Shown here in pieces: positions 5,278 through 48,833 of a DNA stretch of 64,000 bases. How positions within the stretch are numbered: position 1 is the stretch's first letter; every line of letters starts with the position of its first letter. A program made the position numbers and the translations under genes. Below the pieces are notes generated by a model. That model saw only the letters and a program-made list of their open reading frames with translations. It was not told the DNA's origin and did no database searches. Source of the stretch: Bryum argenteum (taxonomy: Eukaryota > Streptophyta > Bryopsida > Bryales > Bryaceae); the NCBI GenBank assembly GCA_037043015.1, contig CM073321.1:5001-69000 (forward strand), in the 5' to 3' direction.

Positions 5278-5283
5278 GTTATC

Positions 5284-25640: not shown

Positions 25641-26470
25641 GTTCCTCAACGTCAATGTGGACACTATCTCCTGTTTCTTTGGACACAAACTCCAAACTTC
25701 TTTCACATTCCAGGATGTGGCAACGTGTCACGATCTCAGGCACCGAAATTTAAATGCCACGTCAGATTTCCGATGCCACATCAGATCAGATTTCATCCAT
25801 TACAAGGATGAAAACTTGTCCCACGTGGCATGTACAAATGCAGGAAAAGCTAACGTGGAAAGTATTTTACTTACCAAGTTCCTCACCCTAGGTAACTTCC
25901 CCAACTCGAAAAATGTCATTTTAACATCGCATGTTAAATCATTTGTCCCCGTAAACATTTTGAACACTACACGTTAAACCCAAAAAACACGTAATTCATT
26001 ATAATGGGAATATTCAAATTATCATCAAATAACATATTTCGTTAAAGTGAGAATATTTCTATTATCATCGGCCTAAATTCCACAAAAAGGACTATAGGGC
26101 GACCTAAAGTGAAAAACAAGAAACTCAAAACTCTCTAATATAAGCAAAACATCCCATTAAAACAAGAAACTCAACTATATTGAGAACATATATTTGGAAT
26201 GGTCAAAACACATTCCATATCTAATCTAAAAAGAATAGCACATCAGAACGGAAAACACATTAAAATGAGAAATCAGAACAATGTCAAATATTACATACAG
26301 TTCTAAACATACGATTCTATGTAATATATCAGTTACAATACAGTTCCGCTACAAAAAAATTACACCAATCTACTTATCTAATTCTGCCTAGACATGAAAA
26401 CTCTAATCAACTTCAACGTAATTGAGCTTAAATCCAATTCGAGCAAAAATTATGGACGAGCTCTTGCCAA
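25641..26470. other. Region downstream of gene B, no gene
   Basis: AT-rich, with strings such as CACGTAATTCATTATAATGG (25989) that recur inverted at 48683 and in related form at 34487 and 34735. Contains the likely 3' untranslated region of gene B. No coding signal seen. Confidence 0.5.
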
Positions 26471-26735: not shown

Positions 26736-29623
26736 TAACCTGTTGCTCAGATATTGAGATTGTTGGACGTTGAGAACCAGCTTTGGCACTCGATTTCCAA
26801 GCTGTAAAAATAGCACCTGCATATAGCCAGACTGAGTCATGGCTGTCATCAAAGACCCATTTAAAGTTCTTCTGTGTGTCCCAGCCAACATAGGTATCTT
26901 GAACAAGAGCACGCTTGCTAAAAGGTTTAAAATATTGAATTTGAATACATCCCGGATTGTTGCGATCTACATCGAAATCAGTCAAAGCCCTCGCAATCCA
27001 AAAAGGTCGAGCATCTCCATCTGCAGGACGTAAAGCCAAAAAGTAGCCGGCAAATACATCTCGACCAACGCGAAAAGACTCTCTTGGTTTATCACACAAG
27101 CGGCCAATAAAATGGGAGTCTTGCCCATATTCCTCGCGTAATTCGCCTGTGTGCAGATATTCTCGAATCAACGGTACTCGAGACAAAGGCCAACATCCAT
27201 TCTTTAAAGTAGTAGAAACCTCCATGGGCGCCAACAATAAATCATTTACTGCACGCCAATATCGTAAAACAGAATCATGTCGTCGACGAAATTCTCCTGA
27301 CAAGTCTTGAGCACATGAGGTTTCCCACAACTTAATGAAACCTGCTATACCTTTCACAATTTCATCGAGATTCTTCATAGGAATTGACGCTAGAGTCTTC
27401 ATTTCTCCTATAGGCAATAGAGGCATACCGGTAATAGAATTCTCTTTCCACAATTAATTCCTTCACTAGTCGATGGAAGTAACTCATTGTCAGAACATAA
27501 CATCTTGTACTTCATCATGGGCCACCCGTTGTCATGTTTGAAAAATTTAAATCGTTGCCCTTCAAAATGACCAACAAGAACTTCGTCTTTAAAAGCAATG
27601 AAATCCTTGATATATCCTTTAAAATCGAGAATCTCCTCAATCAAATGCGGAATAACTGGGAGTGCCTCAGCGTCTATGAAGGATTTCATCAAAAGAGGAA
27701 TCGTCAAATAGTCATTCTTTTTTAAAATCATACTCCAGCGTCCAAACAGAGCGTCAATATCTTCATGAGTATGTCCAACTAAAAGAAAATTAACGTAAAT
27801 TTCACGGAAAACGCCCATATGTACCAAAAGGGACCAAAAGCAAAACATGAATTGATTTTTGTTATCGGAGGCGGCGTTGTCAAGTTGCACATGTAAAACA
27901 GGAGGAAGGGATTCCGTAGCACCTGATGACTCACTCTCAGGCAAAAGAGAGTTTAAACAAGCATCTTTACCGATAAGCAAAGCCTCAAACAAAGGATGCG
28001 TTCCAGATCCAGCAAACAATGACTTCGAATGTGATATCGGAACTCCTTCTAAATCTCGGAGAAGCTTCAAAATAGATCCAACAGTGTGATTGCAATCACT
28101 CGGATAAATGTCAAGTCCATAGTGAGCATAACGAACATCGCAATGTCCGTGGGCAATCATTCCCGTCACAGCAATAGGGAGCTTCATAAGCGCATCATTT
28201 GTTTTTGTTTTGTGAGAAAATAAAGGACAAGCCGTTTTTGCATGATCCATTTTGTCGTGGATAATGCAAAGAACATCTTTGGGTCTTTGAATAGATAAAG
28301 AGCGGTTTGTATAATAATACTCACGATGTGTTCGCTGATGGTCCAAGTGCAGTTTAAGCTTTTTGATCCACATGTTCTCTTCACTTGAATCTGGCACCAT
28401 GGACTTGATCATGGTCTCAAGTTTATCACACGTTGCACATCGTGCAAAATTGTCTCCGGGTGCTTTCTTCGAATACTCGGAGAATATAGTTCGCCTAATC
28501 TTGCTGAGAGTACTTTGAGCGATGAATTTCAGCCCCAACCTCTCGTTGATAAGATTGATATCTGGGATCGTATCTTTCCATTTGAAGGACGAAGGCAATG
28601 ACCGTGATACTACTTTGAGTCCATTACTCAGCATCTTCGCTTTGTGCGGCATATGATCAGCTGTGTTGTCGATTAACACTTTCATCGTTGCAGCAGCTTG
28701 TTTCACATGAAGTCGTGGTTTCTTCGAGCCAACATTCCCGTGATGTCGAGCCCGTAAGCCAGCAGCCGCCTCTGCTTTCTTCCTGTAAAACGTTACAGGA
28801 GGAACTCCAGTAATATTCTGCCATGCTCGAGCACAAATATCAATACCTTCCGTTGTAACCATCATACTTCCGTCAGCAGTTTTATGAAATCGATGATGTA
28901 CATCAATCTTAAAGTGCGCCTTGAACTTAAAATCTGAGGACTCGTACATCTGCTTTCTCAAGGTCAGAATCTTTTGGCGAGGGAATGGCTGACAGCAATT
29001 TTTACTGCAACACTTCATACTCGCAACCAAATTGACAGACTCTACGGTCAATAGTTGCTCTTCCCTCCTAGTTCTGTGGATCTTTGGATGTCTTTCTCCC
29101 AAAGTATACGGACGAACTCCTTTCCTCTTTGGTTGATCACGAGCATAAACCGCAACATTGTATTTCTCCCGATGCAAATGATCAAGTAAAGACCAACCAT
29201 CATGAATGGCGTGGCTGAGATCCCATTTTAATGACTGAAATATTGTATCAGAAGGCAGAAACTCTAAATCCAAGCACTTTACGATCTGAACAACTACTTG
29301 ATGATCTCGCAAAGGCTCGTCATCAGAACCCAGTACACAATCAGATCCCACACTTTGACAAATACCCTCTGCAACAGCGGCCCCTCCAGGATTCAATAGT
29401 GTCACAAATTTGGTTATCCATTTGCATCTCGGGGGTCCAAGACAATCCTTCAGTCGATCCGGCAGAACGAGCTCAACATCTTCCAAATCCTAATAACCAA
29501 AAAACAATTACGTTAAACAAGGAACCACCTTAGACGTTGATGGAAACAAAGCCGTAAAGATTCTAATACCTCTGAAGAAAGACCTCGATTGTCCCAGTCG
29601 TCATCGGACGCACTAGTCGCCAT
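26689..29623 (-). CDS. Gene B: DUF7869-type protein, candidate transposase
   Basis: Two exons: 29623-29570 (18 codons, acidic start) and 29489-26689, joined in phase 0 across an 80-bp GT-AG intron. The product is about 950 residues. Visible elements: a Cys cluster K-C-C-S-K-N-C-C; a G-L-R-A-R-H-H segment; C-A-T-C-D zinc-like pair; then three spaced acidic motifs, H-D-K-M-D (about 28240), L-D-N-A-A-S-D-N-K-N (about 27870) and G-H-T-H-E-D-I-D (about 27765). These are the hallmarks of DUF7869 proteins and look like the D-D-D core of an RNase H-fold transposase. A single frameshift near 27450 splits the frame; pseudogene A shows the expected reading there. It is the only transposase-like gene in the giant element. 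DUF7869 is recognised by motif; the enzymatic role is inferred. Confidence 0.85.
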
Positions 29624-30140
29624 GTAGAGCGGTCACACCCTGATTATAGCTCCGTGAATAAGCTATACAACATGACAAAAGATACAAATAACCATCAGTA
29701 AAAATGAGCACGCAAACATGAAACCTCAGAACATGCTGAGAAAAACCTATGTAATTAGTAATAAGGATCGACCTAAACACTACGTTTACCATACAGCGAC
29801 CTAACCACTGCCTCAAGCTGGGTTCGACCTAAACATTCCCTGTTTAGCAGGCAGCGACCTAAACACTGTGCGCTGAAAACAAAGGCGTCCAAACACTTCG
29901 TGCAGATCAGAGAGTACTTACAACTGTGCGTTTAGGAGGAGGCAAAGAACCTAAACATCACGTAAACACGCAGAGACCAACTAAGTGCTCTTAGCAGGCA
30001 GGGACCTAGTCACTCACTGAATAGCAGGCAGCGACCTTTACACTATGTTCAACGCCATACACACCGCGTATTTACCAGGCACCGACCGAATATCTCTGCG
30101 TTAAGCAGGTAGCGACCTAATCATACTGCATATAACAAAA

Positions 30141-30800
30141 TTGACCTTACAATGTGCGTTTAGCAGACAGCGACCTAAACAATGTGCGTTTAGCAGACAC
30201 CGACCTAAACAATGTGCGTTTAGCAGACACCGACCTAAACAATGTGCGTTTAGCAGACAGCGACCTAAACAATGTGCGTTTAGCAGACAGCGACCTAAAC
30301 AATGTGCGTTTAGCGACAAAATGACCTAAACAATGTGCGTTTAGCGACAAATGACCCTAAACAATGTGAGTTTAGCGACAAATGACCTAAACAATGTGAG
30401 TTTAGCAGACAGCGACCTAAACAATGTGAGTTTAGCAGACAGCGACCTAAACAATGTGAGTTTAGCAGACAGCGACCTAAACAATGTGAGTTTAGCAGAC
30501 AGCGACCTAAACAATGTGAGTTTAGCAGACAGCGACCTAAACAATGTGAGTTTAGCGACAAAATGACTAAACAATGTGAGTTTAGCGGACAAACCCTAAA
30601 CAATGTGAGTTTAGCAGACAGCGACCTAAACAATGTGAGTTTAGCAGACAGCTCGACCTAAACAATGTGAGTTTAGCAGACAACGACCTAAACAATGTGA
30701 GTTTAGCAGACAGCGACCTAAACAATGTGAGTTTAGCAGACAGCGACCTAAACAATGTGCGTTTAGCAGACAGCGACCTAAACACACTAGGTTAAAAAGA
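30141..30800 (-). repeat. 30-bp tandem array (about 21 units)
   Basis: The unit on the plus strand consists of GTTTAGCAGACAGC followed by GACCTAAACAATGTG and one variable base, period 30. There are two subtypes: GTGC units at both ends and GTGA units in the middle. CGACCTAAAC is the complement of GTTTAGGTCG, so each unit carries one perfect and one degenerate half of the palindrome found elsewhere. The 30-bp period keeps several reading frames open, which explains the repetitive open frames here. Some units are disturbed (for example GTTTAGCGACAAA around 30310-30380). Confidence 0.93.
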
Positions 30801-31546
30801 CATCGACCATTACAGTGTGCGTTTACCAGCCAGCGACCTGAACACAATGTATTTAGCTGACATTGGCCTACAGAATGGGTGTTTAGCAGACAGCAAGCTA
30901 ACAGTGCGTTAAGATGGGAGAGTCAAAACCACTCCGTTTATGAAGTAGCGACCTAACACTGTGTTAAACAGGCATCGACGTTTACACCATGCGTTCGGCC
31001 GGTAGCGACCCTAAATGCAATGCGATTAGCGGCAAAGAACGTAAAGCTCGCGTTTAGCGGTCACGACCTAAAATTTGTGCGTTTAGCAGGCTACGACCTA
31101 AAATCTGTGACTTTGGCAGGCTGCGACCAAACAGCTATTCATTTGTCCAGGACACGAAAGTCATGCGGTTAGCGGTGGAACCTACCACCATGCGATTAGC
31201 GGTGCGACCTAAAAGTCGTGCGTTTAGCAGTGCGACCTAAAAGTCATGTTTTAGCGTGCGACCTAAAAGTTGTGCGTTTAGCAGGCTGCGACCTAAAATT
31301 TGTGCGTTTAGCAGGCTACGACCTAAAATCTGTGACTTTGGCAGGCTGCGACCATACAGCTATTCATTTGTCTGGGACCTGAAAGTTGTGCGGTTAGCAG
31401 GCTGGGACCTACCAGCTGTGCGATTAGCAGGCTGCGACCTAAAAGTCATGCGTTTAGCGGTGTCGACCTAAAAGTCGTGTGCGTTTAGCGGTCACGACCC
31501 TAAATTTGTGCGTTTAGCAGGCAAAATAGAAAATACCAGATTTTGG

Positions 31547-31622
31547 GACCTAAATGCACACCCATCGACCTAAATGCACACCCATTGACCTAAATGCACA
31601 CCCATCGACCTAAATGCACACT
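31547..31622 (-). repeat. 20-bp tandem array at the upstream end of leader intron B
   Basis: CGACCTAAATGCACACCCAT repeats almost perfectly four times. Its exact inverse complement is repeated at 39866-39920 at the equivalent place of gene C. Confidence 0.9.
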
Positions 31623-31770
31623 GTGATTCTAGTATTTCTAGGAAGGTAAAATGAATCCCGCGGGGAAGTCGCAAAGAGCAAGATAAAAGAACAAATCAAT
31701 TGCGCATGGAATTGCAATTGCGTATGGAAATGGCGAACCTGATACAGAGCACCAAGAAACCCTAGCTTAC

Positions 31771-32255
31771 TGACGAACACCGTGGAACAGAGACCGAATG
31801 CAAGAGCAAACGCAAGCAGCAAATCGATGAGGAGATGGTGCGCATCGACGAGGAGCAGAGCGCTGACAGGACGCAGCGGAGCGGAGCGAGTGAGCTGCTG
31901 TGAGCGGAGCGGAGTGCGCTCGCAAGACGCAGAGGAGCAGAACGAGTGGGAGGGTGGCTCGCTTGTGAGCGCGCGCCGCCGAGCGCCGCGAGCGAGCGCG
32001 GCCGCCGGAGCGCCGGCGGGGATCGGCCGGGCATAGCGAGCCGGGTGAGGGCCCCGGGCACACGGCGAGGCGGGAGCCGTTCGACTTCGGGCGGGAAGCT
32101 CCCGCCAACGGGCGGCGGGTCGCCTGGGGCCGCTTCATGGCGCCACGCCCGCCGCCCGGCGACGACGCGGCGCGTGGGTCACGCTGCCGGGAAGCCCAAG
32201 GGTGCCCACGGGTGCCCACGGGTGCCCGGGGGTGCTCGAATCGCCCGCTGCCCCA
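31771..32255 (-). promoter_or_regulatory. GC-rich CpG-dense leader / promoter of gene B
   Basis: An abrupt GC-rich island between AT-rich spacer and leader intron, dense in CG and GCGG strings, with a small GGGTGCCCAC tandem repeat at 32201-32230. Several overlapping open frames on both strands are products of composition. Read with gene B it occupies the same position as the island at 38900-39757 does for gene C. Interpreted as promoter plus 5' untranslated exon; the transcription start is not determined. Confidence 0.5.
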
Positions 32256-34639
32256 GATTATTTAATAACGACATATATTAAAATTAGAAAATTAAGACAT
32301 ATTTTTGGATTGCAATTAACTGATTTGTTACAAAATCATTGATAAAAATTTTAATTCTACATAGGTTAATAAATAATTTACTACTCTTTCTATCACAAAT
32401 TCTAACGTTGTGATAAATTATTCACTTTAGATCAATCTCAAAAGAGGTGAATAAAATTAATTCATACCGAATCATAGAATAACACATTCTAAAGAACTAA
32501 ATTATTCCATACCTAGAATAGTATATATACTTTACGAGTTACTAAACTTCGAATATTGATCATCAAATAACTCATTTCAAATCTTAGAATATTTATCTTA
32601 CAATATCTAGATTTGTATCGTAATAAACCAATTTGTAATCAAAATTCTTATATATTATAGCTATCATATCAAACTTCATTTACGTAATATTTATTTTAGT
32701 ATACCACAGCAAATCTAGTAAATAAATATAATAACAAGACAAAACATAATGTACGTAGGTAATAAAATTTGAATATTGCAATTACAACAATTTTAATCAT
32801 AGAATACCTCTATTAGAAATTATTAGTACTAATATATGTAGGTTACTGAACCGTAACGTTATTTTCCATGTACTTAGATTAGAATATTTTTATCACTTAA
32901 AATAAATAAACACAGGAATTAGGGTTGTACTACTTATTAAATGTTTGAAACCTAATTATTCTTATATTACGTCACCGAATTTAGTAAGAATTATGTTAAT
33001 ATAAGTTTATACTTATTTACTAAATACTAACTTAAGTATACTTCACTCTAAATTTGATCAGACTATTATCTATAAAGGAAAAGCAAATAATTTAATATTA
33101 TTTTCATACCATTAAAGATGTAACAAATATTATATTTAAACTTATTAGATTATAAAGATTATTAAGGCTTTAGATAAAGTATAACTATTTATTTTTATAA
33201 CTTTTTGTAAACTAAATCATTCCTATAACTTTTTAGAAAAATTTAATATTTTTCAGATAATAAATTCATCTTATGTTGTTAACTTTAATATAGTCTTCAG
33301 CTTATTACGTATCATTTGATATAAATTTTTTATAGATGTTCTATATTATATTTATCAAAAACGTATTTATTCACTAAAATACTACCTATGATTCAATGTA
33401 TAATATAAATACATGAACCAGTTATAAATCATCAAACTGAGCGTATATTTCTCTATATAATCATTAAAATCAAACAAAAAAACATAAATTAAAAAACAAG
33501 AATAAAAAATTTAAACAATCAGAGTATTTTAATGTACATAAATCTAAGAACAAATTAAAATATATTTTAAAAGAGTAAAGTTATTCTTAAATTTTATAGA
33601 ATTTTATAATACTCAAATGTAAATGATAAATCAAATTTTCATAAATAAATAAATAAAGAAATATATAAACACGATTTTCAACTTAAATATTTATTTTATA
33701 TTAAGTTAGATATACATGTCATTCGTATTAAACGGTCAACTTATATTACGGTATAATATTATGTTAATATATACTTATCTACCTGCGTCGATTTTACCGT
33801 AGTAGTAACGGTAATTTTTTTACGACAACTTTAATATCCATACGATTACATTTACATTAAAATTTGTGACAAACATACACTTTTTTTTATTGAGTTATAT
33901 TATAACTCGGATCTGTTGTTTGAATGAAGTTTGCGCAAAACTACCTCCACATAAAATTAGTATAATTTCGTTCAACTTATAATCTCAATATTTTGGACGT
34001 TAGCTAGTGTATAAGCGTGACATATGCAAACACCATTTTGCAATGCAATCACTCTTTCATTTACAACGTTTGAATAAGCAATTTGATGCTTTCAAATGAA
34101 AACATATATTTCCGAGAAGAAAAAATTTTATCAATTATCGCTAAGTTGTATTGTAACTAAAAGTAAAGGTACATTAACTTAAACTGAATACGAATTTATA
34201 ATTGTACAAGAGAGAAAATTTAATCTATTGTGACAATTTTTAATTAATTAACCATTTTTAATATTACTTATTTTACAACGTTATATGGTGTTATAAGCGG
34301 GCATCAAGAGGCAGGTAGGGCAACCTAAAATATTAATCAAAATCTAATTGTGAGAAATTAAAACTATTAGATGTTTATGTCTTGGATTATTTGATCTTGT
34401 GTAACCATAGGAATAAGAATTATGAAAAGTAATTAAAGAAATGTAATTTTTTAGTACTGAACGTTTTTGAACTTAAACTTAGGATTAAAACACGTAATTC
34501 GTTAGAATAGGAATATTGATATTATGAAATTGATGAAAATTGGGCTACGTTAGAACAAAATATATTGTGAGAATACATCTAGTTCGACCCAGTTAAGCAC
34601 ACATTTATGCGTATTTTAACTAAAATTACTTTCGATCTA

Positions 34640-34700
34640 TTTATGGTTTAGGATTTAGAGTTTTGAGTTTAGGGTTTAGGGTTTGGGATTTAGGGTTTAT
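34640..34700 (+). repeat. Interstitial telomere-like repeat inside the spacer
   Basis: Several TTTAGGG-type units in tandem, including two perfect TTTAGGG copies around 34670-34685, with variants such as TTTAGGA, TTTAGAG and TTTGGGA. Confidence 0.7.
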
Positions 34701-35136
34701 ACTAATTATAGAACGCACATTCTTCATATTTAGTCAAAACACGTAATACGTTATAATGTGAATATTAAGATTATCAAATTGAGCTTGGTTTAAGTCAAAT
34801 GTACTGTGTGTGTACATTTAGCTCGACTCCACCTAAACCAACATTTCTCAAAAGCAGTGATAATACCATTATAACGAATTAAGTGTTTCAAATATGTAAT
34901 ATATTTCAATCAGTAAATAATTATATGATATTGAATTACAACACTTTTTACGATAAATAATATCTATATATTCAATGACAATTTTTCTCATTGTTCGCCT
35001 TAGAGAAGGTGTATTCAGCGGTTGTTTCTGACGTCATTCCGAACAATCGACTCACTATCCGACTGGCACTCTTCTACGCGTTAACTACCTCATCAGCTAT
35101 TGAGCTCACGTTCTTTCATTATGTTGTCTGGACGAA

Positions 35137-35607
35137 GTGACGAACTTTTCAGAAGATCACTTCAATAAATTCCTAAGTAGCAACAATGTACATACATCTA
35201 AGGGATTCAATACAACACTTTCTATAATGAGCGGCATTACTAGAAGTTCTTACTTTGTCATTAATGATGAACAATCGAGCTGTAAAAATCCGACTATTGA
35301 GAGTGCGATCCGAGAGATTGAGTCTGATTATTGAGGTGTAGAGTACAACTTACTAGTGTCGATAGGCATTAACGATGTGAAAATCATGGAGTTTAAAATT
35401 TCTGAAGAAAAACTCGAAGTGCTTTCTATGTTGCAGAAGAGCTTATACTTTAAGAAGACTAACGCACTAAGTACTCAGAAACTCACCACTCTATTGCCAT
35501 ATCCACGTGCTGTTGAATCTTTCTTTCAAAGTAGAAATGAATCAGCATTATTGAGACCTTTTCAACATCGGCAAAGCATTCGATACGTAGTATGTTCAGC
35601 GTTTTAG
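35137..35607 (+). CDS. Two adjacent short frames, possible degenerate gene
   Basis: Frames of 65 and 83 codons (35137-35334 and 35356-35607) lie in a stretch with higher GC than the surrounding spacer. They give ordinary hydrophilic peptides without repeats. They could be exons of a small gene or a relic. I recognise no domain; chance is a real alternative. Confidence 0.2.
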
Positions 35608-38600
35608 GTTCATGGCTGTCTACAACGACAAATTCGCTTGATGTCGAGTGGGTTCTAACTCTCTTCGAATTGTGTACCTATGTTATTTAATTTATTAAGT
35701 TTTAAATCTGGGCAAACAACGTCGTACGCGGAATCGATTGTACTAACGTTTACGAAAACATAAACCAATGAATTGCTTGTGAAAATCGAAACGAATGAAA
35801 GTATTCGATCATACATAATCTATTTGATGTTTCATCAATATGAATAAATTTATCAGCTGGCGTGCACTTTAATACTTTCTTACATTTATTAGAGGAAGTG
35901 AGAGACGACATTCGACTCGTGTTCAGTTTCAATTTAGTGCAAAAAGATTGCAATATGCCTTATATATTTTGCATTCTTCTATGTTGAGGAATGTTACATT
36001 GCTACATATATGATAAAAGATTGTGGAATCGTGAAATACAAAGTTCTTTCCTACCATGTTTGCAATTGTGTTTCTGATAGAACGAATGCACATAAACGAA
36101 TATCAGTTTTGATACATACGAAGAATGAAGAATTATGAATCTTTATTTATTGTAATCTGTGAACTTTCATTAGTTATACATTGAAATTGTTTTATACACA
36201 CTGTTGCTTATTGGAAATACACTGTTATTTATTTGATATATAACATTACCAATATGATATACACCGTTTCTTGTTTGGTATATAACGTCGTTTAAAAAAA
36301 CGAAAAAAAACTAAGAAATGATGTTTAGAAAAAGAAGAAATGTAACTTAACGGAATTATTTTCATTTAAAATCTACTTTAATTGTAAATGCTTGCAAATA
36401 TATATCATATAAATTAAATGTTGATCAAGTTTGCAATTTAATTTAACTGACTAATATCTTAAAGATTTGTAAATTTGAAATATTCATACTTTTATGAAAC
36501 AAATAAACTATTTTACTCTATTTATCGAGGAATTATACTAATTGTTATAAATTTTAAAAAAAGAAGTAAACCAAAAAATGAATAACTAAGAAAAATTATT
36601 AATTCTGATTAAACTAAAAATTAACGCGTATAAATTATATAATGTAATATATAGAGTTATATCAGTATTACATCTATACGGTGTTTACTAATTAATAATG
36701 TACAGAATGAATGAAATATTAAAAAATGATGAAAATATAGATTAATGAAACGAAGACAAAAATTTCATTATTTGTCTATAGAAGTATCATTTTATGATAC
36801 TTATTAAAAAAAAAAAAAAAAAAAAAATTTGTGGAAGTGGAAAGAAATATTAGTAACATAATCGCATCTAGATGTAATGTTAGGATTGCAATTGAACTAA
36901 CTAACATTATTTAATAAGTAAGGCATGAAAAAGTAGAATGTAAATGTAATAACAGTTTAAACATTCAAAATATATTAGAAAATGAAATGAAGGTGTTATT
37001 TTTGAATTTTTTGTTTTGAAGTTTAAATTTACGTAACTCGATTTATAGCAAATAATTAAAGTATTTAGAATACAACTACAATAAACGTGTAGTTACAAAT
37101 ATATTAATAACATATAAAACAGTTGAATTCGAGCTAATAATGACTATATAGAAATAGTACAATTTGGACAAAAACAAACGTATAAAGCAAGTAGTGTATT
37201 AATTTATATGAGTTGACGAGATTTGAAATTCTTCAAACTTGAAAAGTAAAAAGAAGAACTTAGATGTTTTATACATTATGAACATATTTATCATGAAGCA
37301 TCATCTTAATAACTGTATAATTATCGTAAATTTTGAATTGTGTGTATTTGAACAATGTTTGTAAATTATGTATCATTTGTTTTATAGTTAATTAGGTTAT
37401 ATATAATCTTTAAAATTTTAGTTAGTACTTGTAAATAATTATGATTAACTAAAATAAGTCATTATATGATTATCTTTTGGGCTATTTCTAGCAAAATAGC
37501 ACATTTCATAGAAATCATTTCAGCTAAAAATCATTGGAAGCTTGTGTAAGTTAAATCGTACAAACATGTAATACTCTTATCGAAGATACAGTCAACCAAT
37601 ATTTGGAATCTTATAAATTGGAAGATCATAACATAGTAATATCAAAAATAAACTGCAAAATTTTATTATTTATATTTTGAGGTAAAATTGCTACTTATAA
37701 ACATATTGCAATGAAATTATAACCAACGGGATTTAGTTGTTCGCATTTATTTTCATGAGATTTTTATTCAAGTAAAATACACCAAATAAAATTCTTGGCT
37801 AAAATAAAAGTCATGCAATGGTAAAACTACTAAACATTAGAAATTATTGGAACATAATTTTCTTAGTTAGTAATTGGAAACAGTTATCTTTAAGTACAAA
37901 GTAATAAAGTAGAAATAAATAATGAGAATTTATAATATTTACGTCTAATTCTTACAATAAGAAAAATTAGAGGTGTTTGTGATTGAAGGCTTATTTAGAA
38001 CAATGTACGAAAACAAAGACAATGCTATGAATAGAATGGCGTTTATAACTTAACATATTTGTAATATGTTACAAAATGAATAAAAAAGTAACTTTCATAA
38101 TTTGCTGATTGCCCTTTCAAATTGGGGTTGGATCATTATCCGCTTGATTGAACTCATTGGGGTTAAATAAATCTCAAAAAGTGTAGTTAAGTGGTTTAGA
38201 GAATATTCTATAGCTTAGAAAATTAATAAGTGTAGACATTTTGTAAGTAATGAAAGTGCTAAAAAAACATACAAAAATAGATATTCATTTGTGGATTAGA
38301 GTGATTGAATTTAACAACGTGTAGCAATTTAAGCCCTAAAGACTCGAGGAGTTTGAAGAAAAACTTAGATGTGTTATAAAATATGAATTCGATAACCTTT
38401 ATGAAGTAGCGCTTCAAAGATAGTATAAAAATCTTATTCCCTAAATTAGATCTATACGGTTAAATTTTCCCAAAATAAGTAAGATTCATTTAATAATTAA
38501 ATAAAGAGAGTAAAACTTTGAAAATCCATATAAAGTTTAATTTCTATTATTAGTATTTGGAAATTTCTATGATTGACTAAAATCACATATTATATGATAA

Positions 38601-38899
38601 AATGGAGAGAGGCTACAAGTAAGCTATGAGAAACCTTATTAGTTTCCCTAAATAGTAAATTTTCTTACACTAAGAAAACTTTGCATTATTTGTGTTTGAA
38701 GGCTTATTGTGAACAATATATGAAATGAAATGGGATCCAGAATTGGGTGTGGTTCCCAACTTACCAAACTTTTGGAATGTTAAAAGAAATTCCAAAGAAA
38801 TTCTTTTTTTATCCAAGTAGAACCTCCCAAAAATCGGGAACGACCATAAAATGGACTTTTGGGCTCTGCGGGATTAAGTACTAAAATATTACATTGTTT

Positions 38900-39757
38900 G
38901 GGCAAATGGGCATCATGGGGGCGGGTAGGGCAAGCTGCAGGCGTGCCTATCATCATCACGGACGGGCGGCGGGCGGCCAGGCACCACTGGCAGGCGTCAC
39001 GCCCATCACCTGAGGGTGCAGCGGAGAGAGGGCGGCCGGGCAGCGCCCTTGCGCCGCCGATAGCCCGTGGGCCAGCCCGAGCAACCGCCACGCGTCGGGG
39101 TTTCTTGGGCAGCCGGCGAGGTCGCCGACATCTCCCGCGCAGGCGCCCCGCCGACACTCGCTCTCTTTTTGTTTTTTTCGTCCACGACTCCTCGCGTTTG
39201 TCGTTTCTAGCTCCCCCCGCGTTTGTCGTTTGCGACTCGCGCTTCTTGTTTGCCATTGCCGCCGTTTGCGGCTCCGCGTTAGTGTTCATTTCAGCTCCGC
39301 CGCCGTTGCTTGTTTGCATTTGCGGCTCTTGCGGCGTTTTTTGTTTGCATTTGCAGGTCCTCGGTCCGCCTTTTTCGCTGCTCTCCGCCCTTTTGCGCCG
39401 ATCGCGCCGTGTGTGTCTTTGGTTTCGCCTCGCCCTCCTCTCGCGGCTCGCGCACCTCCTCGTCGCGGCCCCGTGCTTCCGCGGCTCGCTTTTGATCCGC
39501 TTTCTGTTGATCCGCTCTTGATCCTCTTTTTGTTGCTCGCCGATATTGACGCCGTTTTCTTCGTTGCGCAAACCTTTTTCCGCGGTCCTGCTTTGGTGGG
39601 TGTTTTGAATTTGTTTCATCTTCACATTGTTTCTCTCCTTGTGTTCCATCTCCTTATCTCACATTTTCTAACCCCGATTTTGTGGCTAGGTATCTGCGCA
39701 TTCGGATCGCTACTTTGTGCGCTCTAAAACGGCCTTTGCTTTCTCCATATTTTTCAG
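38900..39757 (+). promoter_or_regulatory. GC-rich CpG-dense leader / promoter of gene C
   Basis: An abrupt GC-rich island followed by a stretch dominated by GTTTGCGGCTC/GTTTGTCGTTT-type text. It ends at a strong donor (CAG followed by GTATGC at 39758). The next exon with a fitting acceptor starts at 40757, two bases before the start codon of gene C. The long frames on both strands (38780-39727) are compositional and give low-complexity Arg/Ala or Leu/Phe-rich products. Confidence 0.5.
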
Positions 39758-40756
39758 GTATGCAATTTGTTACAGCATTGCAATTTGAACGCAATTCCAT
39801 TTGAATTTGATGTTGCGTTTTGCAACCTCTCAGCACGATTAATTTTCCATAACTAGAATAAGATTGTGCATTTAGGTCGATGGGTGTGCATTTAGGTCGA
39901 TGGGTGTGCATTTAGGTCGCAAAATGAGAAAATTCCTATTTCACGAGCTAAACGCACATCTTTTAGGTGGAAATTTCTGGTATCTCCCATTTCACGAGCT
40001 AAACGCACAGCTTTTAGGTAGCTGCCTCCTAAACGCACATCTTTTAGATAACTGCCTCCTAATTGCAAACTTTTTAGGTATCTGCCTCCTAATTGCACAT
40101 TATTTAGGTAGCTGCCTTCTAAACGCACAGCTCTCTCGTAGCTGCCTGCTTCATCAACTGCTTTTAGGTAGCTGATTTCTAAACGCACAGCTTATACGTA
40201 TCTGCTTCCTAAACGAACAGATTTTAGGTAGCACCCTGCTAAATGCACATTTTTAGGTAGTTGCCTCCTTAACGCACATCCCGTACGTAGCTTCCTCCTA
40301 AACGCACAGACGTTATGTACATACCTTCTTATCGCAGATCTTTTATGTACGTGCCTGCTTAACGCTTATCTTTAGGAAGCTGCCTGCTAATCGCACATCT
40401 TTTAGATAGCTGCTTGCTAAACTGACAGCTTTTAAGTAGATCCCTGCTAAATGCACTCTTTTCGGTAGCTGCACCCTTATTTTACAGCTCTTTCGTAGCT
40501 GCCTCCTTTACACACTGCCGTTAGGTATCTGCATTTGAAGCGTACCTTAGTATTGCTCATCTCTTACCTAGGTGCCTGCTACACACCGGTTCTATGTAGG
40601 TGCCTGCTAAACGAACATATTTTAGGTAGCTGCTTGCTAAACGCACAGTTCTTTCGTAGATGCCACCAAAACGCACAGCTGTTAGGTAGATGCCTGATAT
40701 TGCTATGCTTTTAGATAGTTGCCTGCTGAACGAACAGTTATTGTGCTGAATTGCAG
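39758..40756 (+). other. Putative leader intron of gene C, carrying the 30-bp array
   Basis: GT donor at 39758 and TTGCAG acceptor ending at 40756; 999 bp. It holds a 20-bp array (39866-39920) and a degenerate 30-bp array (39940-40740). An in-frame TGA at 40747-40749 lies four codons before the ATG at 40759, so translation cannot start further upstream if this DNA is retained in the mRNA. Confidence 0.5.
39866..40740 (+). repeat. 20-bp then 30-bp repeat arrays, same family as array B
   Basis: First, TGCATTTAGGTCGATGGGTG repeats about three times, the inverse complement of 31547-31622. Then units of TTTTAGGTAGCTGCCTCC plus TAAACGCACATC recur with a 30-bp period, more diverged than array B. 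Relative to its gene this array has the same orientation as array B has to gene B. Confidence 0.85.
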
Positions 40757-40758
40757 AC

Positions 40759-43700
40759 ATGGCTCGCACCAAGCAGACCGCTACAATTGTTCCCGCTTCC
40801 GCAGAGAGGGACATCCCTTCTGGGAGTCATGATGAATCTCATGACAATCAGGTATGATTTTTTCTTGTACTTTAATGGTTTGTTTTAGAATTCTGATGTT
40901 TTGTTTTTAAATTCATATCTAGTGGATGTTAGGTAGATGACATCATAGCGCACATCTTTTAGGTAGATGCCTGCTAAACGCACATCTTTTAGGTAGATGC
41001 CTGCTAAACGCACATCTTGTTGCTTCTTTAAAATCAGGTACCGTTTGACCTTAGTACCATTGAAGGGTACCTGGAGCCCCTTGTTGTCGAGCCTACAGAT
41101 GTACTTGCCTCTGCTGTCGCGGACGTGGAGAATTACGGCATGTTGTGGACTCCTAAGCCCAATTCCATTCTGTCGTGGTCCTTGTACCCGAAGGAGAAAG
41201 GAATTTTCCACCTGTTTCAACAGTCTGGAACTAATCCTGCCCATCTCCCATTCTGCAACGACACTTTTATTTACGCGGTGAACTATGAGGAGTCACACCT
41301 TTTCATCACGCTGAGGGTGACCTACGTTCGTGGATACGTCTTCACCATCGTCTTTCCCCAGCATGAGGTGCGATACTCGCACGACACCATCAAGTCTTAC
41401 ATGGTCGGGAAGACGGAGGCGGGGCTCCTGAACCACATCGTAAGTGGCATTCTGAATGTGAGCACTCCGAAGAAGTTCGTGCAGACCTACCAGCAGTATT
41501 GCATGCACATCTGGAGTGCTCTGAATGACTTCGAGAGATGCAAGGCGAAAGGCAAAGCACCCGTAAGGAAGGCACTCATGCCTGCTTTTGAGGAGGGTAC
41601 GGGGTCAGGAACAGCGCGGTCTGGTATGGCCTCCATCGAGGTAACTCCTACGCCTTCGCGGAAACGCCGCAACTCAAACCCATCGCCAGTAAAGCAGCAG
41701 AAGAGAATCAAGAGTAGTTTGGCAGGCAGTACAATTACGTATATGAATCCTTCTATCAAGCATGCCACAACCGAGAAGGACATCGACTACGAAGCTGCCA
41801 GTAAGACTCTGAAAGACTTCTGGGAGAAGTTCGAGCCTTGTTACGTTTTGGGCAAGGACTCGGCTCCTGTCAATGTGGACATCGACCTCCTGGAGAAAGC
41901 TGATGCGCGATTCATCGTCCGGAAGCTTGAGCCTGCTGGAGTTGTCCATTACAAGAACATCCTGACGAATTCAATCGATTTGAATTCAAGGCAGACCATC
42001 ATCATCATGCCCATCATCACTGTGGCTCCTCCGACTTGGGACTGGAATGCACTTCTCGAGTCAAAGTGCAACTTCCGTGTGATCGATGGGCAGCATCACG
42101 TCGAAGCTGCCAAGGAGCTTATCAAGGAGGCTAGAATCTCCGAGGATAAGATTACCGCCTTGAAGACCTGGCTCATGTTGTCTGGCATTCAGACGCCAAG
42201 ATGATCATGGACGTTTCCATCATGGCGAACAAGACCAACAACGCGGGAACATTCACACCCTCGTGGGCCACAAACATATTGGCCGCGAGAAGTGTTTGGA
42301 TTGAATACGGGTCGCCCGCGAAGTGTGGTGCGAAGCCCAAGTCTGGTCGGGAGACAATCGAGCAAGCTATCGCTCGAAAAAACTATGAGGTAAGTCTTGC
42401 ATTTGTTCATAATTTTCTCTGCTTGATTTGTGGCGTTTAGGTCGACGCCACCTAAGTTCCAGGTGTTTAGGTCGATGCGAGCTAAATTCTGTGCGTTTAG
42501 GTAGACTCGACCTAAATCCGTGCGTTTAGCTGGACTCGAGCTAAATGATCATCCCGTCATTTTCTTGAATTGATGTCGACCTTTCGTTTTCAGGATTTTG
42601 AAGAGGCCATGGTGAAACGCTTCATGAGCATCAACACGAAACCCCATGACAAGCTCTTGAAGCCAGCGGACCTCCTCAACGAACTAGAAATCATCACCGC
42701 TTCTGAGGAGGTGTACCAGCTGTGGTCCGAGGTTATCATTGCAGTCCAGATGGGAGAGTTGATAGACCCCGACACTTGCGAGCCTTTCAACCGGAATCTC
42801 GACTGGGAGACCAAGTCCAAGGATGTCGTCTTGACTCGCGATACCTTCAGGCAGATGTCTGGATTCGAGGAGCACGACTTCAAGACACTAGCGCTTCATC
42901 TTTTGAATAGGACTCCGGACCGGGACCTTCCGTATCCCAAGGTGTCCTTGAAGAAACCGAAGCTGAACTACTGGGAGTGCGTTGCGATAAAGGTTTGGCT
43001 GGAGAAGCGCAAGAGGAAGAAATGCGTTGCAAGAGAGTTCCACAACATCAAGCCATCACTGGGGTTATTCGACAGTGCTGACAAGTTTGTGGTTGAAAAG
43101 TGGAAGCTTTTCAAATTCGAATACAACGTAAATCGGCAGACCATGTCGATGCTTCTTTCCGTGCTCGGGGACGTGTTCTTCAGCGACTACCGGCAGAAGA
43201 GGACGAAGAACAAGAGTTCTGAAGAGATTTCCGAGTACGCTACGGAGTTCTTCAAGAAGTTCTTGGAAGTGAAAGGGGATTTTTCGCTGCCAACCCCGGA
43301 AGTTCATACAAGAATGTTTGATGCTGAGGCGTTTCAGTTCGCTGGCTGGGATAATGGGTATGCTTGGGACGATGGAAGATGCGCGTTGGGCATCATCGAC
43401 CTGAGATGCGTCCCCGGCCATAGTAGCAGGGTGGATGACATTTCGAATGTGTATTTCAAGGACTTCCTGAATGCTTGGAAGGATTCTGTGTATGACCCCT
43501 CCATCAAGAATCCTGACGTCTGGCTTATCATAACGGAGACTAGCGATCGTCATTGCCAGGCCGTCGTATATTTCAACACATTCAAGGATATGTACAAGTC
43601 GAAGGCAGTTCATTACGCACCCGCGAACAACGAGCGTCTCAACGGTATCATGGAGGGGAAGGTCGTGGACAAACACCGCGTTCCGCTCTTGTTTCTCCTC

Positions 43701-46486
43701 AAGAGAAGCTCCCATGTATCGGAGGTATTCGATGAAATTCCGGAGGTATTCTATGCCCCGGACTTGCCTCTGTATCACAAGCCAAGAGCTTACAGGGAAT
43801 TCGATTTCTGCATCAACGACAACGAGTTGCGCTTGGAATTTTACATTCGCGTGCTGCGAATGTTTACAGTTCCAGGAAACAGATTTCTGTCCATCATGGG
43901 TGGATCTAAGCCCATGCTTGCAGGAATTGTAAGTTTGTCATTCCTTTGGGCGTTTAGGTCGATGCCACCTAAATGCCTGTTTTTGTCAAGTTCGCATTGT
44001 CTGTTCCGTATTACTTGTCATCTTTATTCGTCTCTATCTAAATTACACTTGATTTACTTGGCGTTCGTCAGACTTGACAGTGATTTGGGCGTTTAGGTCG
44101 ATGCCACCTAAATGTCTGTTTATTTAAGTTCACATCTGCTCTTCTGTTCTTCTTAGTGGACTAACTTTGTGTTTTCATTTCACAGATGCTTAATCTTCAA
44201 ACTCATATTGTCTACGAGGACAAAGATGAGTTGGAGAAGTACGAAGCCGTCCGTGACAGTAGTTTCAATCTGGATCCGAACGACTTCTGTGTGGACGCTT
44301 ATGTGAATCCAGAATGGGTTCATGGTCCGAAGCCTGGGTCCTCGCCTAAGGCTGGGGTTACCGGAACTTCTCGTCGTGGTCGTGGCGAGGCATCGGCATC
44401 TGGTGGTCATACTCGTCGTGGTAAGGCAGCCTCTCATACTGTCGCTCCTCAAGGGGAACCATCGTCTGCTGGTGGTGGGAATCCTTCGTCTGCTGGTGGT
44501 GGTGATCCGTCCTCTGCTGGTGGTAGTGATCCGTCGTCTGCTGTTGGTGGCGATCCGTCCTCTGCTGGTGTTGCTCGTGGTGGTCCTTCTTCGTCTGGTG
44601 GCCGTGCTCGTGGTAGTAATCCCTCGTCTGGTGGCGCTCCTTCATCCGGTGCTCGTGGTGGGCGTGGTCGTGGTCGTGGTCGCGGTCGGGCATCTACTGG
44701 GCCTTCTGGCGTGCGGGCTTTGAGTATTGAGCCCATACAGAGCATCGATCCTGTTTACAGGAACCTGCTCATAGATATTGGCCCCGATGACGACGTTGAT
44801 GAAGCTATTCCATTTGTCAGGCGGCGCAGATCCTTGGCCAGCGGTGGGGATTTAGGTCGCGTCGACCTAAATCCCCCTACACTCCTCGAGGAGACACTTG
44901 CCTCCACGGGCCTCCCCGTAACTCTTAGCGACGATAACAATGAAGAAGACAACTCAGATCATCGTCGAGAGACCCGCACCAAGGCTGCAAATGACGTTTT
45001 CGGGTCTGAATCGGAGGAGGAGGTGGTTCTCGGGCAAGAGAGGTTGCCCAGAGATGCGCCTACTTCGGATAGTTCTGACGGAGAGAACGCCGAAGAGGGT
45101 GCCGAGGAGGGTACTGCAGCGTCTGAAGAGGATAACAATATCGATCCCTCTCCTATGAATTTGGGAGATGATGTTGTTTCCTCCCCGGCTCCTGTGCAAG
45201 CCGGTTCGTCGGATCCAGCAGTTCCAAGACAGCCATCACCGCCTGCGCCACCTACAAGAGAGTCATCCTTGCCTCCGCCGTCTGTTGTGCTCGCATTGCC
45301 TGCTCCTGCCCCTGTTCGCAGACGGTACCTCCCTTTCATGAAGAAGGGGGTTTGGAATAATCACGCCGACTGAGAAAGTGGAGACTACATTTTTCGATTT
45401 CTCAGCTGAGCCGGATTCCCCCACGCCAGCAAAGGAGGCTGACGATCCGCTTATCAATCTTGGTCTTGGTCCGCAAGAGAAGGGTGAACCTTCACAGCCG
45501 CGAGTCAAGATTGAGGCGAACATTCCCGTTCCACTCTCGAAGGATGCCAAGCGTGCCCTGCGTGAGAAGGAAAAGGAAGAGAGAAGGGCAGCAAAACGAG
45601 CTGAAGAAGAAGGTGCGAACGCAAGACGGGAGGCGCAAAGGCTTGCAGACCTTGCGAGATTGGAAGAGCAACGGCGAGAGGATCAACAGCGCGTCGAATC
45701 AAAGTTTGCGAATTTGGAGAACTCAAATTCCAGAGTTTTTGGCGATTTGAGTGATTTGAGGGTCTTGTTGACGCAGATAGCACAAGTGGCTCAGCCCCTT
45801 GCCTCCTTCAATCCCGTCAATCAGCCTACTCTGGCTATCTGTGGGCCTTCAACCTCCACCAGCCAAACGCAACCCCAACTCGCAGCACCTCCGAATCCGG
45901 CAGTTCCAGCCTGCATTCTTCCTGCTTTGTCGACGCCAGTACCCGACGTTGTAGTTGAGGAGATCATCAGTGACGCATCTCGTTCGGAAGCTGATATCGC
46001 CAAGCAAGATGAGTACCATGGCGATCATCCGCTCGAGACGCAAGACCAGCGAAACGACGTCGTGGACTACGAGGCTAGCGACCACGGACGAACACATGAA
46101 GATCTTCGTGATGGTGCTTGCTCACTCTTGGTGACCTCTGTTTCGGTTGATGCAACCTCCGTGCAAGAGGTTCCCTCGGGTAGTCATGACTTACAGGAAG
46201 ATGCACAAAGAGCGCTACAGGGTGCCCCAATCTCCCCGAACAACGATCAACGAACTCTCTCTGCGAGTCTCGAACAGGACTCAGTACCTGCGACAAATCC
46301 CACGGTAAGCTTCTTATCAATGGTTTTTAAATGTATTTTAGGTCGGGTCGACCTAAATTTCTGTTTATCTTGTTGATGATCATCTGCTGAAATTATTCTC
46401 TGCTTGTATCATTTTTCATATTGTAATAATTTTTTAAGCCGGCGCTCCTTGTTTCACAGGAGTCCGGCATTGAAGACGACGAGTAG
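40759..46486 (+). CDS. Gene C: ParB/DGQHR-like plus degenerate DNA methyltransferase-like protein with a histone H3-like N-terminus
   Basis: Six exons by GT-AG and frame, all phase 0: 40759-40851, 41038-42389, 42594-43928, 44186-46304 and 46460-46486, plus the leader exon; about 1,640 residues. Residues 1-8 are MARTKQTA, the H3 tail. About residue 381 is I-D-G-Q-H-H-V-E-A-A-K-E-L, resembling the ParB/Srx or DGQHR superfamily (I-D-G-H-H-R-x-E-A-A). Exon 3 follows the order of beta-class N4/N6 DNA methyltransferases: G-I-I-D-L-R-C (about 751) where D/S-P-P-Y is expected, then Y-H-K-P, then F-T-V-P-G-N-R-F-L-S-I-M-G-G-S (motif I-like) and V-Y-E-D (exon 4). The catalytic Pro-Pro motif is absent, so methylation is unlikely. 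Exon 4 adds RGG/Gly-Ser repeats, acidic tracts and a coiled coil (45540-45730). Two frame breaks (about 42160-42195 and a G5 run near 45348) leave its integrity uncertain. Palindromes lie in three of the introns and in exon 4. Confidence 0.75.
42436..42547 (+). repeat. Four palindromes in intron 2 of gene C
   Basis: Four consecutive copies with half-sites GTTTAGGTCG, GTTTAGGTAG or GTTTAGCTGG paired with CACCTAAG, GAGCTAAAT or CGACCTAAAT, ending 47 bp before the exon 3 acceptor. Confidence 0.9.
43951..44114 (+). repeat. Two identical palindromes in intron 3 of gene C
   Basis: CGTTTAGGTCGATGCCACC followed by TAAATG occurs at 43951-43975 and, identically, at 44091-44115. The identity of the copies suggests recent duplication or selection. 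Confidence 0.9.
44846..44876 (+). repeat. Perfect 14-bp-arm palindrome inside exon 4 of gene C
   Basis: GGGGATTTAGGTCG, three bases, then its exact complement. It lies in the open frame and encodes G-D-L-G-R-V-D-L-N-P without disturbing it. Confidence 0.95.
46336..46358 (+). repeat. Palindrome in the last intron of gene C
   Basis: TTTTAGGTCG, GG, then TCGACCTAAA, about 30 bp after the donor site of the 155-bp intron 46305-46459. Confidence 0.9.
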
Positions 46487-46562
46487 GTCTTGTGAGTTAG
46501 TCTTCGAATAATTGGATGGTGTGCCACGATTGTAGATATTACCATGTAGTGACTCCCCATTC

Positions 46563-46568
46563 AATAAA
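46563..46568 (+). terminator. AATAAA poly(A) signal of gene C
   Basis: AATAAA 77 bases after the stop codon at 46484-46486, in a short 3' region before gene D. Confidence 0.6.
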
Positions 46569-46775
46569 ATGAAGACTTTTTTATTTATCACTTGCGTCTG
46601 CACTGCGTCCGCGTCGTTCTCCCTCATTCTTGGCGCTAAATATCGTCATTCTTCTATCAGGCCGCGCCTCTAAGTACCTTATTCCGTCCGCTTGCCACCA
46701 GATCCCCCACCGACCACCTTGACCTGTGCGTCGGTGCGGTGGTCCGGTCCTCAATCACTCCGAGCAGTCATTTGC

Positions 46776-48351
46776 ATGCTTCAGCATTTCACAAGGTAAC
46801 ACTCTTGTTTTAATATCATCCACTATTGTCATTGGTCGTGCTGCAGGCTAGATTGCCCAAATCTTCGAGCAAGACTTTTCCTACAACCCTCAGTCAACCC
46901 CTACCGCGTGTGCCATCAGTTAATGGATACCGTTCCATGCCCAAGTGGTTGAACGTGGTGTTGGAGTTGAACGGCGTCCTTTGTTCTACTACCCCTATGT
47001 CTCAAGCCCCATTCCAGTACCTTATTTTTCCTGATCCCAAACACCCTCCTGTTCTGTCGTCAACTATCCCCACCGTAGTTGCTAACACGGTAGTATACTG
47101 TCGTCCTGGCCTTACCCCATTCCTCAATGTGTTAGACCGTTTCTGCCACATCCACGTTTGGAGTACCCTTCAACCTGAAGTAGTCGACGGTCTCTGCACC
47201 TTCCTTTTCTCTAGATCTGTTGCCGTTCCGCAGATCATACTGGCCTCAAACTCCTGCGATGGTCTCTTGTTGAAGAATTACACGACGGCCATGTACCCTG
47301 GCACGACTAATCCTATCTTACTTAAATATCCACGTCGACGTCTCTTGACTAGAAGGGATGCTAATTTCAACGCCCAGAACTTTATTATGGTCGATAGCAA
47401 TCCTGCGGCTTGTATGGCTGTTCCTCCACTGAACACTCTCTTTCCTGATCCTTGGGTCCATTCACATCTGGGCCCACCCTCTGACTCTTATCCACTGAAA
47501 TTAATCCACGAGTTTTGTTTTGCCGTACATTTGAGAGGTCCGCAGAACTTCTGCCAAGTTATGACTAGTAGACCCTCTCACAATGACTTGTCCAAGGACT
47601 CGGAGTTGTACGGCATTATGTCTCGGAATTTGCCCTATGTGTGGAACCAGCTCCTACTAAATGGAAGAACCATGTCGTGATTACTTTCATTTACGGTATT
47701 GCTTAAAATTTGTTTTTTTGCTTTTTCTTTGACTTAGTGTTGTAATGCCTGGTCAGATCATCACCATTTCGTAGTCATGGATTTGCGAATTGCCACTTTC
47801 GATTGTTCTTGTGAGTCTACCATTAGAATGCCTTTTAAAGATTTAGTGTTTCTTTTTATTATTCTCAGGTTTTCAGCGATGGACAACAAAGTGGCTCCGT
47901 GGATGATATTCCTCCAATGGATCTCTCTACGATGTCAGATCCGTCTTACAATAGTGAGGGGTCGAGGACACTCTCGGAGTTGGAGCGAGGGCGGTACATT
48001 TATCTTGCTCGAGATGACGCATCTGCTGTGGACTACACCAAAGACGTCTTGGATGATGATGATGATGATGTTGTTGATAGTTACGCCGATGTACCGAGTC
48101 GAATTGTGGCGGCTTCTCGTGAGAACATCCCGCTACGGCGACGGAGCACCGCGGCACGGATTACTAATACCTCTAGTCGTTCTACGGCCCTTGGTGTTCC
48201 CTGCGATTTAGCTCCCGTCAACCTAAATCATCCTTTGCGAACTTCAATGGCCCGTGTGGGACTATCCTTTGAAGGAGACTATCCCCGAGTTGTTGGGAAG
48301 CGTGACAGAAATGAGGCTTTTGGTGATGCTCGTCCACGTAGTACTATGTAG
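46776..48351 (+). CDS. Gene D: FCP1/NIF-type HAD phosphatase-like protein, catalytic site degenerate
   Basis: Probable exon 1 is 46776-46795 (ATG, 6 codons plus 2 bases); exon 2 then starts at 46852 after TAG and runs to a stop at 47680 unless spliced earlier. A further exon probably covers 47869-48351 (acidic, Asp-run, Arg-rich end) after a CAG acceptor. The exon 2 product has the FCP1-homology order: W-L-N-V-V-L-E-L-N-G-V-L (motif I, usually D-L-D/N-G), C-R-P-G-L-T-P-F-L, V-W-S-T-L (motif II-like) and F-I-M-V-D-S-N-P (motif III-like). The nucleophilic Asp is replaced by Glu and the second Asp by Asn, so phosphatase activity is doubtful; a binding role is possible. It starts only 290 bp after gene C on the same strand within the giant element. 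The junction of exons 2 and 3 is unresolved. Confidence 0.65.
48205..48229 (+). repeat. Palindrome inside the last exon of gene D
   Basis: GATTTAGCTCCCGTC followed by AACCTAAATC, in frame within the coding sequence, analogous to the one in exon 4 of gene C. Confidence 0.8.
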
Positions 48352-48419
48352 ATTTTTCTGGGCTTTACTTTAGGAGGTCTACAATTACACCAATAATTTG
48401 TTTTCTGGATTTTTCAATC

Positions 48420-48425
48420 AATAAA
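48420..48425 (+). terminator. AATAAA poly(A) signal of gene D
   Basis: AATAAA 69 bases after the stop at 48349-48351. Confidence 0.6.
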
Positions 48426-48649
48426 CCTTTCTCCTTTAGTAAATTTGTATTAATCATTGATTGTATTTTGAATGTATTCTTCTTTTTGATTAAGTATAGT
48501 TTGTATATTCATTACTATGTCTTTTTATTTTGAGAATATTCTACTATATTGATAAAACGTGCTCTTTATTTTGAGAATACTTCTCTCTATATTGATAAAC
48601 TTACATTATTTGGTAATGTATTTGGCTTGGTGCACTCTAAGTGCGATTG

Positions 48650-48833
48650 TATTACCGTAAATCGTATTTACCATTTTGTGTATATATTCCCATTATAATG
48701 AATTACGTGTTAAAAGACGTCCGTGACATTTTCGATTTATTTGCGTCACTTTTTCTGTCCGCGTTAAACTACGTTAAACCGCGTTAAAAACAACGTTAAA
48801 AACAGTGTCCGAGGACCCTGTTTTCCTCTAGTG
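48650..48833. repeat. Right subterminal region of the giant element
   Basis: Contains GCGTCACTTTTTCTG, several CGTTAAA strings in a row (48770-48805) and a CATTATAATGAATTACGTG string (48690). The same motifs occur at the left end. It ends with the complement of CACTAGAGGAAAACAG. Confidence 0.8.

Follow-up and report, generated by a model that had tools for sequence, protein, structure and literature searches.

Why should a gene carried by a plant transposon begin with the letters of the histone H3 tail? The question is raised by gene C of Bryum argenteum, which was analyzed within a stretch of 64,000 nucleotides (NCBI GenBank assembly GCA_037043015.1, contig CM073321.1, positions 5,001 to 69,000 of the forward strand; hereafter the window, numbered from its first letter). 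Histone mimicry is known from viruses and from host repressors. The first coding exon of gene C (40759..40851, plus strand; N-terminus MARTKQTATIVPASAERDIPSGSHDESHDNQ) reads ATG GCT CGC ACC AAG CAG ACC GCT at 40759-40782, which encodes M-A-R-T-K-Q-T-A and is followed by TIVPASAERDIPSGSHDESHDNQ; the translated exon, MARTKQTATIVPA...NQ, ends at a consensus splice donor (CAG/GTATG). Compared with the N-terminus of host H3 (MARTKQTARKSTGG, at two loci of the same genome, L148 and L149), residues 1-7 after Met are those of H3 and residue 8 is T, not R. The full H3 N-terminus, ARTKQTARKSTGG, was not found in gene C: copies of the window's subfamily (A-type) carry the seven residues only, and those of a second subfamily (P-type) carry RTKQTAR after a Pro. 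The degenerate pattern M-x-RTKQTA matched the genome at 112 places and its reversed control at none, so the H3 likeness is not due to chance. No similarity to H3 extends past residue 7 or 8, and a Pfam scan of exons 2-4 returned no histone family. Thus, what a sequence-only reading of the window had proposed, an exact copy of H3 residues 1-7 directly behind Met, beyond chance, on an exon with a clean donor and on a protein that is otherwise not histone-like, is borne out by translation, by the host H3 comparison and by these searches.

Whether these letters stand at the true N-terminus depends on the start codon. A TGA is present four codons ahead of the ATG in the unspliced upstream frame, as had been noted before. 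In addition, AG occupies positions -4/-3 relative to the ATG in 127 of 139 exon-1 loci (duplicates counted), and does so in both deep lineages, so an intron probably ends two bases ahead of the start codon. The segment previously called exon 1 does carry the start codon, on indirect support, but probably follows a non-coding leader exon and would then be the first coding exon, not the first exon. A putative leader (38950..39757, plus strand) ends at a donor, CAG/GTATGC, at 39757/39758. Its 557 bp before this likely donor (39201-39757) contain no ATG in any frame, with 4.6 expected (P = 0.009), and the full 808 bp (38950-39757), the left bound of which was chosen after the ATG positions were known, contain none, with 5.5 expected (P = 0.0038). 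When spliced from the donor at 39757, the reading has an in-frame stop and no in-frame ATG ahead of MARTK. A start at the ATG at 40759 is likely and, judged from these sequence features, well supported, if indirectly.

The element occurs in well over 100 genome copies. By codon type, 100 listed of the 112 M-x-RTKQTA places comprise 38 ARTKQTA (the window's subfamily), 50 PRTKQTA and 12 histone-type places (two of the latter were read through, and both are H3). Exon 2 is only about 48% identical between the window (A) and P subfamilies. Copies were collected with exon 1 (89 matches), with exon 2 (112 matches from 109 of 825 candidates scored, a lower bound) and with two P-lineage queries (150 matches each, the best 150 of 284 and of 280 candidates, both lineages being among them). 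From the resulting 142 loci (L009-L150), the two host H3 loci and one locus without a clear exon 1 (L107) were dropped, and merging of duplicates left 120 unique exon-1 copies; three P-type copies picked by motif (L146, L147 and L150) were excluded from the selection counts. ARTKQTA was present in 43 of 63 copies of the window subfamily plus an offshoot with Lys-Met at residues 4-5 (KM), and PRTKQTA in 13 of 21 P-lineage copies for which exon 2 was the sole selection criterion. Of the remaining eight P copies, seven read PRTKHTA (2), PRTKQTV (2), PRTNQTA, PRTKQSA and ARTRTIA, and the eighth is disrupted; in total, 19 of the 21 have R-T at residues 2-3 together with K-Q, K-H or N-Q at residues 4-5. 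Among the 33 other A-lineage copies, 31 lack ARTKQTA and two encode it, with the frame broken inside exon 1. The 30 exon-2 matches nearest the window copy include 24 with an intact MARTKQTA and one more with it before a frame break; two have no ATG, and three are changed at residue 5 or 7. As a side observation, 73 of the 89 exon-1 matches lie on one contig (C1, 44 of 259 Mb), possibly a sex chromosome or one rich in transposons.

Purifying selection on the first codons is clear; over the rest of the exon it is much weaker. In 53 A1 copies, codons 1-7 differed at 0.035 nonsynonymous and 0.169 synonymous differences per site, whereas the corresponding values from codon 11 to the exon end were 0.071 and 0.065. 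For 19 P copies, they were 0.020 and 0.079 (codons 1-7) and 0.045 and 0.096 (codons 11 to end). Residue 8 and the lack of Met at residue 5 were among the criteria for choosing the A1 set, and Pro1 was the criterion for the P set; the residue columns used in this way are not free. When distinct variants in codons 1-10 were compared with those in the rest of the exon, one-sided Fisher tests gave p = 0.015 for A1 and p = 0.0011 for the pooled copies, values that are rough because variants are shared by descent. Moreover, when eight lineage representatives were compared in pairs over codons 1-10, the proportion of nonsynonymous differences (pN) was below that of synonymous ones (pS) in all 28 comparisons (the A1 representative, merged with its duplicate, is not among the eight; L112, its KM sister, is). 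The N-terminus is maintained as a peptide, and the linker downstream of it drifts. The first residues do not vary freely: the conservation in other copies on which the sequence-only reading hinged extends over both the copies of the window subfamily and a subfamily of ∼48% identity, although residues 4-5 differ elsewhere.

The family motif is [A/P]R[T/I][K/R]xTA[R/K/T]I[V/I], with Ala or Pro at residue 1 in 111 and Arg at residue 2 in 107 of the 120 unique copies; variant forms include ARTRTTARII, ARIKSTARIV, ARTKMTATIV, MPRTRTTAKIV and MARTRLTATIV. Genome-wide, a loose motif was found at 26 places in its Arg/Ser-4 form and at 138 in its Lys-4 form (12 matched strings listed), with 0 and 1 in the reversed controls. 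On the exon-2 tree, K-Q copies fall into two nested groups, each with non-K-Q neighbors (the long-branched L090 and L110 were in the first such tree and excluded from the second). Parsimony requires three changes and does not make K4Q5 ancestral. A single clade of K-Q rows, to which L068 (KM) and L073 (NQ) were added, was rejected by an approximately unbiased (AU) test (p = 3.6e-63). This grouping was defined once the tree had been inspected, and the result is compatible with K-Q being ancestral and having been lost on several occasions. Under a two-state likelihood model, the probability of K-Q was 0.21-0.29 for the A-lineage ancestor, 0.37-0.43 for the P-lineage ancestor and 0.50 for the root. 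The third base of the residue-4 codon follows the lineage, with AGG/AAG in A and AGA/AAA in P. For Arg-4/Ser-4 places with an exon-2 match, identity was 79-86% with L083 and 71-81% with the K-Q copy P72. This says little, since different parts of exon 2 are covered by the two queries and L083 is also slightly nearer to some K-Q copies (C1:3031791, for example, with 85 vs 81). Convergence on K-Q is likely, two gains being the shorter account, with the root left at 0.50 by the likelihood model; the exact H3 letters are a state of two subfamilies, which was perhaps reached twice.

We tentatively favor, with a probability of about 0.42, the reading that the gene C protein is a SNAG-like ligand, presenting a free N-terminal H3-tail peptide on a ParB-like body, and is encoded by an accessory gene of the transposon. 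Ala and Pro at residue 1 both permit removal of Met, so a free N-terminus, ARTKQTA or PRTKQTAR, would fit the residues found there. Such a peptide could dock on host readers of the H3 N-terminus, be it LSD1-like demethylases (as SNAG does), PHD fingers or WDR5, while the probable ParB-fold body might bind, or clamp onto, the element's own repeat arrays. A host factor would in this way be either hooked to the element or decoyed from it, and silencing would be loosened; both recruiting and decoying were considered. The H3-mimic interpretation, as first proposed, gained support from the P subfamily and is weakened by the variation at residues 4-5 between lineages.

Nearly as likely, because residues 4-5 vary, is a basic N-terminal arm serving the DNA minor groove, nuclear import or a non-histone partner, with two lineages matching H3 by drift. 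Several observations count toward this alternative and against H3 imitation. Other lineages carry ARTRTTAR, ARIKSTAR or ARTKMTAT (among them L097, which is open over exon 2), so the H3K4-like Lys with Gln5 is not universal; over the family, residue 4 can be Arg and residue 5 any of Thr, Met, Ser, Leu, Ile, Pro and Arg, and the second large subfamily has Pro instead of Ala at residue 1. Furthermore, a double origin of Gln is not very improbable: with 6-12 replacements (a guessed number), the chance that two of them are Gln is 0.02-0.075. An arm of this kind does not account well, however, for conservation that starts at residue 1 after Met and fades past residue 10, for the restriction of residue 1 to Ala or Pro, or for the fact that both large lineages have and keep K-Q despite the at least two base changes that Thr to Gln requires. 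A bolder elaboration of the SNAG-like ligand is unlikely: a ParB-like clamp would load on the element's repeats and spread over it, and its many H3 look-alikes would form a decoy coat that absorbs or redirects readers and erasers, the two lineages having come to the exact H3 letters independently under selection. Transposons capture gene pieces, and 23 bp of the exon are close to host H3 coding sequence. That the exon is the captured 5′ end of a host H3 gene, functionless or re-used, is even less probable, given that identity ends at residues 7-8, that codon choice differs between the lineages for five of the six residues they have in common (GCTCGCACCAAGCAGACCGCT vs CCGAGAACCAAACAAACTGCC) and that K4Q5 is not ancestral on the parsimony tree, although likelihood gives 0.50 at the root. 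Least probable of all is a true start elsewhere, with MARTKQTA internal or untranslated. With an acceptor placed two bases ahead of the ATG, a coding exon could lie upstream, but such a start is disfavored by the ATG-free leader, by the stop in the spliced leader (provided that the donor is 39757) and by strong selection from the codon directly after the ATG.

The body on which the SNAG-like ligand would sit is encoded by the following exons, all on the plus strand. The C-terminal part of exon 2 (41038..42389, with a reading-frame break in the window copy) has a probable ParB/sulfiredoxin-like fold according to a structure model of the L042 copy. No ParB/sulfiredoxin sequence profile scored above its family cut-off in Pfam and phrog scans; below the cut-offs, DndB (E = 0.11 and 0.045, Pfam) and a ParB-like phrog (E = 0.042) were matched. 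WDR5 matches to exon 2 (E = 0.69-0.8) sit in a Ser/Pro/Lys-rich stretch and were given no weight. Exon 3 (42594..43928) matched no known family in Pfam, homology or phrog searches, and its structure model was useless (predicted local distance difference test score, pLDDT, of 35). Exon 4 (44186..46304), with an apparent frame break in the window copy, is Gly/Arg-rich and then, by eye, coiled-coil-like; the last exon (46460..46486, by reading) encodes ESGIEDDE and a stop. The Pfam scan of exons 2-4 detected no zinc finger. When exons 1-3 (928 residues) were used in a homology search, none of the 7995 candidates scored reached E ≤ 0.001; an alignment search with exons 1 and 2 yielded 11 proteins at the level of exon 2, all without exon 1, and the P-type N-terminus had no match in a PDB sequence search. 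The end of exon 3 and the start of exon 4 (43860-44250) resemble, by eye only, motif I of amino-methyltransferases; a Pfam scan of that stretch gave no match, and an origin by ParB-methyltransferase fusion is a guess.

Gene C is, as the sequence-only reading had it, transposon-borne, but the element is much more than gene C alone. It spans ∼22.7 kb (25986-48711) between 28-bp terminal inverted repeats (25986..26013, plus strand, and 48684..48711, minus strand; 100% inverted match). A 26-bp part of the repeat matched the genome 459 times (at most one mismatch; reversed control 0), and 100 listed matches contain 21 adjacent facing pairs less than 40 kb apart, 15 of which span 18.9-24.7 kb; terminal inverted repeats thus flank dispersed copies, as in an inverted-repeat DNA transposon. 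No target-site duplication was obvious by eye at the ends of the window copy. Leftward runs a DUF7869 gene, a putative transposase (main exon 27411..29489, minus strand; Pfam PF25273, E = 7.3e-42), then come an AT-rich spacer (32300..38700, by composition; the gene-to-gene distance is similar in many copies), gene C, running rightward, a gene with a NIF (FCP1/SCP-like) domain (46940..47680, plus strand; Pfam E = 4.7e-8) and a third, small open frame containing DDASAVDYTKDV (47839..48351, plus strand; the P-type element continues with a similar frame). Named relatives of the DUF7869 gene come from Ceratodon purpureus and Physcomitrium patens. For the best 64 of 2380 DUF7869 candidates (66 rows, two extra pieces excluded), a divergent gene C lay within 25 kb of 50, at a median distance of 10.1 kb; 14 had none in the pooled, incomplete gene C list, and four had another orientation. 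Terminal repeats, paired copies and this linkage together identify the unit as an inverted-repeat transposon.

Tandem repeats, located with Tandem Repeats Finder (TRF), occupy non-coding parts of the element. Arrays of 20- and 30-bp units lie in the 5′ part of the DUF7869 gene (30149..31621, minus strand; TTTAGGTCG repeats, of which 25950-32240 contains 31 on the minus strand) and in the leader intron of gene C (39865..40740, plus strand), and a further array lies in the intron after exon 2 (42432..42546, plus strand). In 38701-48760, 23 of 25 TTTAG[GC]T[CA]G motifs fall outside the exons of gene C, which account for 4926 of the 10060 bp. An Rfam scan of 25900-48800 gave 0 matches. The NIF gene has a counterpart in the P-type element (61% identical). 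The usual start of the NIF/FCP1-like active site is DxDxT; the window copy reads ELNGV there and the P-type copy ELDGV, so the product may be a pseudo-phosphatase. Separately, 8.6 copies of the plant telomere-type unit TTTAGGG were seen in the AT-rich middle of the transposon (34640-34699). Elsewhere in the window, TTTAGCTCGA palindromic repeats accompany a second DUF7869 frame (4616-7558, plus strand; Pfam E = 4.4e-34), perhaps the remains of a P-type element, and no P-type gene C was found there; 63162-63653 holds 2.7 copies of a 179-bp tandem unit (TRF).

If the SNAG-like reading is true, a selected, N-terminal seven-residue copy of H3 on a plant transposon would be a new route to chromatin control. 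The natural variants at residues 1, 4, 5 and 8 offer a ready-made test series. A literature search at the level of listings, covering few subscription journals, found no earlier report of an H3-like N-terminus on a plant transposon protein.

Among known systems, the ParB/sulfiredoxin group (ParB, Noc and DndB-like proteins) differs from gene C in that sequence matches stay below the family cut-offs and that the position of the ParB motif GERR reads GQHH. SNAG domains, found in Snail1 and GFI1, read PRSFLV, with a hydrophobic FLV core. Gene C shares with them a peptide that directly follows Met, opens with Pro-Arg or Ala-Arg and precedes a variable linker, and its PRTKQTAR is intermediate between SNAG PRSFLV and H3 ARTKQTAR. 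In contrast, SNAG proteins are host transcription factors and gene C is a transposon protein; residues 4-7 differ, with no FLV core in the 120 unique copies, which have KQTA, KMTA or RTTA instead. The host genome has four SWIRM-domain places. According to the available text of two sources, the SNAG domain imitates the H3 tail and fits into the cleft of LSD1, which in GFI1 is blocked by altering the Pro after Met (PMC5896174, PMC12612597). Viral H3 mimicry, such as that of influenza NS1 (ARSK), is covered in the accessible part of a review (PMC10208167): there, too, a parasite protein copies a stretch of the H3 tail, but NS1 does so with four residues at its C-terminus, whereas gene C has seven, N-terminal as in H3, on a plant transposon. 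For VANC of the Arabidopsis VANDAL transposons, the available portion of the source describes a DUF1985 protein whose binding motifs lie in tandem repeats, both intronic and upstream, and which removes DNA methylation, and makes no mention of an H3-like N-terminus (PMC5735166). DUF1985 is absent from gene C by Pfam scans, and anti-silencing by gene C is suggested by analogy. Both are second genes of DNA transposons with tandem repeats in introns and upstream, and in both cases the repeat motifs differ between related lineages; in logic, the element of Bryum argenteum would appear to resemble VANC systems.
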